Origin: Thermococcus profundus | Lineage (GTDB): Archaea; Methanobacteriota_B; Thermococci; Thermococcales; Thermococcaceae | NCBI RefSeq assembly: GCF_002214585.1 | Contig: NZ_CP014862.1 | Coordinates: 186,001 to 250,000 of the forward strand | DNA: 64,000 nucleotides | Reading direction: 5' to 3' | Position numbers and translations under genes: made by a program | Shown: piece after piece, positions 46,391-48,832 of the stretch | Position numbering within the stretch: position 1 is the first letter of the stretch | How the letters are laid out: every line of letters begins with the position of its first letter | Notes under the pieces: model-generated | Told to the model about the DNA's origin: nothing | Seen by the model: the letters and a program-made list of their open reading frames with translations, nothing else | Database searches by the model: none

Positions 46391-46423
46391 TCTCCTTCTT
46401 TTCCACATTTTTATCCCAAAAGG

Positions 46424-46431
46424 GTTATATT
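46424..46431 (+). promoter_or_regulatory. TATA box of the radical SAM relic-plus-gene unit
   Basis: GTTATATT about 38 bases before the relic ATG at 46464. Transcription from here would give the functional radical SAM gene at 46679 an unusually long leader of about 220 bases. Confidence 0.4.
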
Positions 46432-46463
46432 CCTGTGGTGCTGCTCTTCTCTAGAGGGTGAGA

Positions 46464-46673
46464 ATGGAAAGGAAAAAGCTCAAGATTTACGTCCCCGGAA
46501 TCAAATTCTCCTCGCAGGACCGGGGGGTTTCACCCCCCACGTCCTTGCCAACCCCCTCCCCCCGAACGTGGGGCTTTGCCCCACATAAACCGGGGAACTG
46601 CGTTTTCCAAGCCCTTCCTTCTCTTTTAAACACTGGAGGGGGCTACACCCCATACAACCCCCTTCTGAGGTGA
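46464..46673 (+). pseudogene. Relic 5' copy of the radical SAM gene, degenerate beyond 17 codons
   Basis: ATG at 46464 has its own GGGTGAGA. The first 17 codons read MERKKLKIYVPGIKFSS, a diverged copy of MVNEKKKLKVYVPGIKFPS in the real gene downstream. The alignable bases differ mostly at silent sites. The frame then continues through the hairpin repeats as a meaningless Pro/Gly-rich string to TGA at 46673. It looks like the remains of an upstream paralogue rather than a recent duplication. Confidence 0.7.
46517..46651 (+). repeat. Three GC-rich hairpins between the relic and the radical SAM gene
   Basis: Hairpin 1 is GGGGGG-TTTCA-CCCCCC within a GGAC/GTCC outer stem (46517-46544). Hairpin 2 is GTGGGGC-TTT-GCCCCAC (46568-46584). 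Hairpin 3 is GGGG-CTACA-CCCC (46639-46651). All share G-run, short pyrimidine-rich loop, C-run. They are not followed by a clear oligo-T run, so terminators are not the obvious reading. Confidence 0.6.
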
Positions 46674-46678
46674 GCTAA

Positions 46679-47518
46679 ATGGTAAACGAAAAGAAGAAAC
46701 TCAAAGTTTACGTCCCAGGAATCAAATTCCCCTCAATCTCGGTCACGGGGAACGCCTGTGCCCTGAACTGCGCCCATTGCGGGAGGCACTACCTAGAGGG
46801 AATGAGGAAGCCCGAGCGCGGGGAGATCTTGAACTACTGCCTTAAGCTCGCTGAGGAAGGCTACAACGGGTGTCTCCTGAGCGGCGGTATGGACGGACGG
46901 CTCAAAGTCCCCCTCGACTTCTACGCCGACGAGATAAGGGAAATTAAGAGGAGGACTAACCTCAAGCTCAACGCCCACGTGGGCTTCATCGACGAGAGCG
47001 ACCTGGAGTGGGTTAAGTACGTCGATGCAGTTTCCCTCGACTTCGTGGGCGATGACGACGTGATAAAGCGCGTTTACAAGATAGACAAGACCGTCGATGA
47101 TTATCTCAGGATTCTCGACCTTCTAACTGAGGCTGGCGTGAGAATTGCGCCCCACATAACCATCGGCCTCGATTTTGGAAAGATATGGTGGGAGTACCGG
47201 GCTATAGACCTCCTGGTTCAGTACCCGATAGACGTTCTCGTCCTCGATGTACTCATCCCAACGAAGGGAACTGAGATGGAGAACGTTCCAAAGCCGAGCG
47301 TTGAGGAAAGTCTCAAAGTCGTTAAGTACGCCCGTGAGGAGTTCGATGGTGAGCTGAGCATAGGTTGCATGCGGCCGCTCGGCAGGTGGAGGCTTGAGTT
47401 CGACAAGGGTGCGGTTGTGGCGGGGGTGGACAGGCTCACCAATCCTCCTAGGAAAGTAATCGAATGGGCAAAAACGGTGAGGGACGTGGAGATAATCTAT
47501 GAGTGCTGCGTTATGTGA
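46679..47518 (+). CDS. COG1856-like radical SAM protein, candidate lipoyl synthase subunit LipS1
   Basis: 279 residues. The radical SAM cluster is NACALNCAHCGRHYLEGM near residue 27 (CxxxCxxC). LNAHVGFIDESDLEWV, DAVSLDFVGDDDVIKRVY and HITIGLDFGKI are barrel strands; the protein ends with YECCVM, a Cys pair. Opening VYVPGIKFPSISVTG is the family start (biotin-synthase homologues, COG1856). In Thermococcus a split lipoyl synthase (LipS1 plus LipS2) is known, and COG1856 members are the likely LipS1. That link is recalled, not checked. GAGGTGAGCTAA precedes the ATG. Upstream lies a relic of its own 5' end and hairpins. Confidence 0.75.
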   Translation: MVNEKKKLKVYVPGIKFPSISVTGNACALNCAHCGRHYLEGMRKPERGEILNYCLKLAEEGYNGCLLSGGMDGRLKVPLDFYADEIREIKRRTNLKLNAHVGFIDESDLEWVKYVDAVSLDFVGDDDVIKRVYKIDKTVDDYLRILDLLTEAGVRIAPHITIGLDFGKIWWEYRAIDLLVQYPIDVLVLDVLIPTKGTEMENVPKPSVEESLKVVKYAREEFDGELSIGCMRPLGRWRLEFDKGAVVAGVDRLTNPPRKVIEWAKTVRDVEIIYECCVM

Positions 47519-48638
47519 TGGGTCTCCCCGAGTTCCCGAGGGCTTTGATGAACTCCACGTACGTCTGCTTTACCCTCCTGACCGATGAAACGCTCACCCA
47601 CTCGTCGGCGGAGTGCCAGTTTGAGCCCTTCGGTCCAAAAACTATCGTGGGTGCCCCGAGGTATGTGCCGAAGTAGTTGAAGTCGCCCACGCTCCTTCCG
47701 TAGGTTTTTTCCGGGATTTCGCCCCACAGGGAGGAATAAACCTTCTCAAGAATAGAGACGAATCGATTGTTCTCTCTAACGGTGTAAGGGAGCATTTCGG
47801 GCGTTGGTCTTGGGAACCTCTCTATCTCTAGCTCCCCGCTTACCCCGACCCTTGTCGCGGCCTTTCTCAGCTCCCTGGTTACCCGCTCCCAGTCTTCCCC
47901 AACGACCACATGCCTGTCCACTATTGCTTCGGCCGATTCCGGGACGCTCAGGCCGTCCGCTTCCCCGTGGGCGTAGAGGGTGCAGTACGAGCCCGAACCC
48001 AGTCGTCTGTGTTTTTTAGTCTTTATCTTTGGAAGAAACGCCAGGAGCTTTGAGAGCTCTTCTATGGCGTTTATCCCGTTTTCGGGTCTTGCCGCGTGAG
48101 CTTTCTTCCCCCGGAGCTTCAGTTTTATCACGAACCTTCCCCTTGCCCCGAGCATCAGGCTCTCGTTCGTGGGTTCACCCACGAGGACTAAATCAGCGTC
48201 CCTGAGTTCTCCACTTTCTATGAGCCTCCAGGCTCCCCGGGAATATCCTTCCTCATCAACGACCGCCGTGAAGATTACTGTTGGCCGCTTCTTCTTTGGG
48301 ATGTTTAGGATCTCCACAAAGGCCGTCATCATCGCGGCGAGGCCCCCTTTCATATCCGCACTCCCGAGACCGTAGAACTTATCCCCTTCCAGCTCGCCCC
48401 AGGGGTTCTTCCTCCATCCTCCCCCCAATCCAACGGTGTCCATGTGGCCGTTGAGGACGAGGGTTAGTTTCTTTCCTTTAACCTTGGAGATCACGTTGCT
48501 ACCAAAACCCTCTATCTCCTGGTACTTTACGGGGAGTCCGTGTTCTTCGAGAAACGAGCCGATGAATTTTGAGATTTCCCCTTCACTACCAAAATGTGAT
48601 GGAATTGAGACAAGTTTCTTCAATAACTCTATCTCCAT
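47511..48638 (-). CDS. M20-family metallopeptidase/deacylase (ArgE/DapE-like)
   Basis: 375 residues. LNGHMDTV and GLGSADMKGGLAAMM hold the metal-binding His and Asp residues; DEEGYSRGAW is the Glu-Glu catalytic pair, and VGEPTNESLMLGARGR belongs to the family. A lid domain of about 100 residues (WRLI to SVPESAE region) is present, as in ArgE/DapE. Substrate: acyl amino acid or peptide, unresolved. ATG at 48638 follows GGTGGGTGTC. Convergent overlap of 8 bases with the radical SAM gene. Uses the strong promoter region GAAAAGTATTTAAA upstream. Confidence 0.85.
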   Translation of the reverse strand: MEIELLKKLVSIPSHFGSEGEISKFIGSFLEEHGLPVKYQEIEGFGSNVISKVKGKKLTLVLNGHMDTVGLGGGWRKNPWGELEGDKFYGLGSADMKGGLAAMMTAFVEILNIPKKKRPTVIFTAVVDEEGYSRGAWRLIESGELRDADLVLVGEPTNESLMLGARGRFVIKLKLRGKKAHAARPENGINAIEELSKLLAFLPKIKTKKHRRLGSGSYCTLYAHGEADGLSVPESAEAIVDRHVVVGEDWERVTRELRKAATRVGVSGELEIERFPRPTPEMLPYTVRENNRFVSILEKVYSSLWGEIPEKTYGRSVGDFNYFGTYLGAPTIVFGPKGSNWHSADEWVSVSSVRRVKQTYVEFIKALGNSGRPIT

Positions 48639-48832
48639 GACACCCACCAATTGGAATTTTAGAACTTAAAGTTTAAATACTTTTCTAGACTTCTAAATGG
48701 TTTTTTTAAATAATTCTCAGTTAGTATCACTTAATCCCGGAAAATAGCCAATAGCAAAATGCACAGTTTGTAGTATTCCCAATGAACGATTGATATCTTT
48801 GGGTTAAACCCCGAAAATTGGAACCATCCTAA

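Follow-up and report, generated by a model that had tools for sequence, protein, structure and literature searches.

In Thermococcus profundus, as in about half of Thermococcus species, the start of lipS1 is duplicated: its first ~17 codons occur a second time upstream, and a G/C-rich hairpin cassette separates the two copies. The site is an old repeat locus prone to recombination and not the fresh relic of a lost gene. Because the arrangement is found genus-wide and has repeatedly been duplicated anew, lost and passed between species, it cannot be a private relic of T. profundus. The upstream copy of the start (copy 1) was most likely once the gene start and has since been displaced, with the 5′ end of lipS1 itself forming copy 2. 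Coordinates refer to the window, the whole stretch of 64,000 nucleotides of DNA that was analysed.

The gene at 46679 is lipS1, one half of a two-protein lipoyl synthase. Its product scores 347.8 bits with the LipS1 equivalog model NF053742 of NCBIfam (cutoff 230), identifying it as a LipS1 equivalog, and also matches Pfam PF04055. The T. kodakarensis orthologue is TK2109 (PMC9585515), and its cassette occupies about 1,893,512-1,893,662 of the KOD1 chromosome. The gene 5′ of the locus varies by clade and is an MMPL-type transporter in T. profundus; in other clades it was named by eye as enolase-like or toxin-antitoxin-like. At the other end, a convergent ORF of the M20 peptidase type (47511-48650, minus strand) shares 8 bases (47511-47518) with the 3′ end of lipS1. 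A circular C/D-box-like RNA of 61 nt has been assigned to TK2109 in T. kodakarensis (PMC9014305); in the genome taken as that species (G012) its coordinates, 1894519-1894579, correspond to the very 3′ end of lipS1, where the lipS1 match ends at 1,894,519. The features of the T. profundus locus are as follows.

46416-46431, plus strand: native lipS1 promoter, a purine-rich BRE-like stretch and TATA box TTATATT (sequence; comparison with locus L010)
46425-46431: TATA-like TTATATT, preceded by CCAAAAGGG (read from sequence)
46456-46461, plus strand: ribosome site of copy 1, GGGTGA (read from sequence)
46464-46514, plus strand: copy 1, 17 codons MERKKLKIYVPGIKFSS, duplicate of the lipS1 start (sequence, repeat search, shuffles)
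46464-46673, plus strand: open frame of 69 codons that begins at copy 1, crosses the hairpins and stops inside the lipS1 ribosome site
46514-46563, plus strand: E1, cassette nucleotides 1 to ~50, containing hairpin 1 (low divergence; within the genus only at lipS1)
46517-46544, plus strand: hairpin 1, GGACCGGGGGG-TTTCA-CCCCCCACGTCC (sequence)
46568-46584, plus strand: hairpin 2, GTGGGGC-TTT-GCCCCAC (compensatory U-A/C-G changes in the repeat family)
46592-46608, plus strand: hairpin 3, GGGGAAC-TGC-GTTTTCC, weak in T. profundus; GGGAAAC-TAC-GTTTCCC in most genomes
46638-46651, plus strand: hairpin 4, GGGGG-CTACA-CCCC, decayed in T. profundus (locus comparison)
46667-46673, plus strand: lipS1 ribosome site, GAGGTGA (read from sequence)
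46679-47518, plus strand: lipS1, LipS1-type lipoyl synthase, radical SAM; its own 5′ end is copy 2 (NF053742, PF04055)

A repeat search of the window sequence recovers the duplication as a direct repeat of 47 nt at 85% identity (46467-46513 and 46688-46734), with the ATG of copy 1 at 46464, 215 nt 5′ of the lipS1 ATG at 46679. Copy 1 and the lipS1 start are identical at 40 of 47 positions, compared with at most 26 of 47 for the best 47-mer in the shuffled leader, and they differ by five silent changes and three replacements (R/K, I/V, S/P). An earlier note on this DNA had described a duplicated 17-codon start, equipped with a TATA box and ribosome site of its own, that differs from the gene mostly at silent positions, and this description stands, both sites being plain in the sequence. 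In a sample of the T. profundus genome comprising 20 stretches and 464 kb (about a quarter of the genome, with 865 ORFs of at least 100 aa), lipS1 alone has its start partly copied at short range; the remaining matches are about 600-735 nt distant, and several fall within runs of tandem ORFs. Elsewhere in the genome, three ORFs in tandem, each about 216-240 aa long and similar at their starts (L248:3376-5414, minus strand), apparently form a cluster of paralogues.

The three hairpins reported previously, with loops TTTCA, TTT and CTACA, are all present between the two starts, and a fourth, weaker one at 46592-46608 had been overlooked. Among the remnants in other genomes, the right flank of hairpin 4, TACAACCCCC, is the most frequent. 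The leader region folds more stably than its shuffles (z -3.35), and across lipS1 cassettes the hairpins are present in all copies, with a fold z of -9.3 relative to column shuffles. The stems vary too little for covariation to be detected within the lipS1 cassettes alone. The best Rfam match of the cassette reaches 18.3 bits against a gathering score of 56, and no known RNA family or riboswitch was identified.

A DNA search places the insert in 34 of 61 Thermococcus genomes, essentially only at lipS1. Among the 58 lipS1 loci placed on a tree (a quick single-gene lipS1 tree, with several genomes being drafts), 26 hold the whole cassette, 9 a partial one and 23 none; several cassette-less loci (L028, L072, L075, L083 and L087) retain a hairpin-4 remnant just 5′ of lipS1. 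Cassette loss is common, and the cassette is dispensable in many species. In all carriers the junction falls at the same codon of copy 1, after AAATTC(C/T)CCTC. The other genera of the family have no cassette and no start copy, bar a possible hairpin-4 remnant in L165 and, away from lipS1, a complete cassette resembling that of lipS1 (cassette E) in G062, a genome of another genus. That cassette (L158:552-680) contains no lipS1 sequence and lies between genes named by eye from their translations as ribosomal protein eS6 and FBPase-like.

These comparisons bear on one of the two origins that the earlier note had offered, a full upstream lipS1 paralogue deleted almost completely and replaced by repeats. 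Copy 1 does look like a gene start with its own promoter, as such a relic should. Against this, no genome has a full gene upstream, a second lipS1 stands beside the first in none of 94 genomes of the family, and the copy always stops at the same codon. In practice each genome has one lipS1, surplus matches coming from split contigs or from distant radical SAM proteins; a deleted paralogue was rejected as extremely improbable.

The other proposed origin, a small hairpin element that moved in, is largely supported, the 3′ part of the insert being a member of a dispersed repeat family. Positions 48-151 of the cassette (hairpins 2 to 4, the 3′ two thirds) resemble other sites in many genomes (blastn, about 70-92% over parts). 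A covariance model of these three hairpins, R1, has matches in 54 of 61 genomes, with at most 12 in each and 4-5 in T. profundus. The T. profundus cassette E scores 92.5 bits with R1 and is homologous to the family in sequence and structure; the 14 training rows of the model include lipS1 cassette E sequences, whereas the blastn similarity is independent of it. Stem 2 of the family carries compensatory U-A/C-G changes, and 99% of its cells are paired compared with 40-65% when the pairing is slid. The hairpins thus do occur elsewhere, and orthologues share the leader and the start copy together, which is contrary to the case that the earlier note had named as refuting it, with hairpins confined to this site and a shared leader that lacks the copy. 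Within Thermococcus, E1 was found at lipS1 only; its sole copy found outside lipS1 is that of L158:552-680, in which hairpin 1 shows compensatory changes (GGGGGAC-TTC-GTCCCCC).

Six of ten other family copies examined are near tRNAs, several of them following a same-strand tRNA gene, a position that cassette E lacks, sitting as it does at lipS1. One copy comes after C/D box sRNA-like sequence, and in seven species a series of copies separates hsp20 from the AAA-type gene downstream of it (named VAT by eye). Modular G/C-rich hairpin cassettes, very similar across species, were observed genus-wide (L145-L164 and L225-L234; e.g. L151:535-660, minus strand), often directly or about 330 nt downstream of same-strand tRNA genes. 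A second element, AT-rich and non-coding with a central G/C hairpin, lies between hairpins 1 and 2 at some lipS1 loci (L007, L014, L015 and L081), where about 80 to 270 nt of it are kept; similar AT-rich stretches flank tRNA-linked cassettes (L146-L148, L152 and L160). The literature searched contains no description of the hairpin-repeat family, which is apparently undescribed so far.

The 3′ ends of tRNA genes are classic integration sites. The nearby placement of related cassettes, together with direct repeats of ~47 nt that bracket the insert always at the same codon, would suit the scar of a site-specific integrative element, in which the lipS1 5′ end served as attachment site, the start copies as att-like direct repeats and the cassette as the leftover. 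Such a scar is nevertheless quite improbable: the start copies differ at 35% of third positions, no locus read holds an integrase or a longer element at lipS1, and the cassette has no match in viral contigs, phages or plasmids. A virus, plasmid or phage origin of the cassette was set aside on the same search.

The history of the locus is recorded in its variants. The element-free relative L010 has its promoter and 5′ leader directly before a single start, and these match copy 1 of its clade. Copy 1 would therefore be the native start, to which the cassette and copy 2 were added; or else L010 lost the cassette by recombination between the copies. A third, older upstream piece (a start or cassette remnant) followed by a hairpin-4 remnant is present in L022, L023, L026, L068, L079 and L084; the third copies are decayed, with only hairpin-4 remnants, in all of these except L022, which has a hairpin-4 remnant before copy 1. 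Deletions between like hairpin motifs are seen in L070, L077 and L093, and one assembly contains two cassette forms (L019 and L094). Over the leader and codons 1-30, L023 agrees with L034 at 0.89-0.93 and afterwards at 0.76; compared with its near relative L025, it agrees at 0.40 in the leader and at 0.9-1.0 over most of the gene. L029, whose draft assembly may be chimeric, is likewise mosaic with L067/L070. In both L023 and L029, the sequence as far as about codon 30 matches a distant clade, and what follows matches the clade to which each belongs. As read from these alignments, the nested re-duplications, inter-hairpin deletions and mosaic start modules probably indicate recombination.

The best explanation would begin early in the genus, when a G/C-rich multi-hairpin cassette, kin to the dispersed family, may have lodged at the 5′ end of lipS1 and become joined to a tandem copy of the first ~17 codons. 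Homologous recombination within the duplicated start, with a sister chromosome or other Thermococcus DNA as partner, would then add a new cassette and gene start downstream and strand the recipient's old start upstream as copy 1, or alternatively would remove the cassette again. Since recombination leaves the old start stranded, copy 1 would be a displaced former start and not the remnant of a second gene, and its protein-like, lightly damaged state would be explained without translation. We infer, within this explanation, the order of events, the youth of the displaced starts and the transcription of the leader. A recombination-prone locus with the cassette as passenger is the reading favoured here, with moderate confidence.

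The substitution pattern of copy 1 bears on this reading in both directions. Between genomes, copy 1 differs by 3.4% at codon positions 1 and 2 and by 36% at position 3; non-conservative replacements number 7 of 288, compared with 0 of 288 in lipS1. Copies 1 and 2 of one genome are somewhat more alike than permuted pairs (p=0.002). Orthologous copy 1s in the T. profundus clade have a dN of ~0.06 and a dS of ~1.3, which requires either selection or several independent recent displacements, and the protein-like constraint also fits selection on copy 1. A further point against the recombination reading is that intermediates were not observed directly among the genomes, L029 being a possibly chimeric draft.

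Selection would be expected if the leader regulates lipS1. With the old promoter now before copy 1, lipS1 is expected to have a structured leader of ~220-250 nt and a 69-codon upstream frame; the long structured leader claimed in the earlier note is accordingly supported by the promoter position. A candidate internal promoter just before 46679, the T-rich CTTTTAAACACC, was judged weak by eye because no purine-rich BRE-like bases precede it. The main text of PMC4247193 does not give the TK2109 transcription start. The leader could couple or dampen lipS1 translation, and such regulation is a plausible hypothesis. In a selected cis-regulatory leader, ribosomes translating the upstream frame, with its LipS1 N-terminal residues, would meet hairpin 1 and end at the lipS1 ribosome site, so that lipS1 output would depend on coupling or attenuation.

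Several observations accord with such a leader, including the native promoter 5′ of copy 1, the protein-like evolution of copy 1, the hairpins in all cassette copies and an upstream frame whose stop is no more than ~15 nt from the lipS1 ATG in the genomes read, with one exception. E1 is also nearly invariant: its mean pairwise divergence between genomes is 3.8%, independent of phylogenetic distance, compared with 12.9% in the rest of the cassette, where it grows with distance (Mantel rho 0.40, p 0.001). Between the same species, lipS1 third codon positions, which are near saturation, differ by ~41% and the cassette by 4-13%. On the other side, 23 of 58 loci lack the cassette or keep only a remnant and 9 are truncated, the relation of the upstream frame to the lipS1 frame is not conserved (about half are in frame), and a search for a hairpin with a T-run terminator found none. 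In E1 it is the third codon positions that are best conserved, so this part of the frame is not under protein constraint, and such constraint through the hairpin part was rejected.

The sister cassette between hsp20 and VAT serves as the decisive control. Its divergence is 6.9%, compared with 6.8% for cassette E in the same five genomes, and the spacer beside it diverges by ~20% (seven-genome mean) while the cassette there diverges by ~8% (L150, L154-L157, L161 and L162). Slow evolution is therefore a property of such cassettes and not specific to lipS1, which weakens lipS1-specific purifying selection as the cause of cassette conservation. Whether it arises by constraint or by homogenisation, it is not in itself evidence of a role at lipS1. 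A recent genus-wide sweep of one cassette is in turn weakened by the phylogenetic signal of the cassette, which is significant yet incomplete (140 versus 164 steps). On this balance a selected regulatory leader is possible but doubtful. The narrower proposal, in which the upstream frame serves as a true leader gene that joins the LipS1 N-terminus to a conserved hairpin-coded tail and regulates lipS1 by translational coupling, is unlikely; if true, translation of a duplicate of a gene's own start would control that gene.

Under the favoured recombination reading, the locus is a natural example of how, around a hairpin repeat, the start of a metabolic gene has been copied, displaced and traded between archaeal species again and again. 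It also points to a slowly evolving, genus-wide family of Thermococcus hairpin repeats with neither an Rfam match nor a description found. Three known systems invite comparison. Long leaders have been reported in T. kodakarensis, where 245 mRNAs have leaders of 50-300 nt and the reported mean GC content of leaders is 48% (PMC4247193). The expected lipS1 leader is like those described there in having its promoter far upstream and a structured leader, and differs in holding its own start copy, in being patchy among species and in being G/C-rich. Dispersed prokaryotic palindromic repeats of the REP/BIME and MITE-like kinds share with the Thermococcus repeat short non-coding intergenic hairpins, several per genome, with compensatory stem changes. 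Unlike them, it has no visible terminal inverted repeats or target duplication, the inverted repeats being internal hairpins or weak chance pairs and the flanking direct repeats being the 47-nt start copies; no parent transposase was identified, and at lipS1 the repeat is fixed at one codon together with the start copy. Tandem duplications of gene 5′ ends with unequal crossing-over show the same direct orientation, re-duplication and loss, whereas at lipS1 each unit contains a repeat cassette and the start modules cross species borders.
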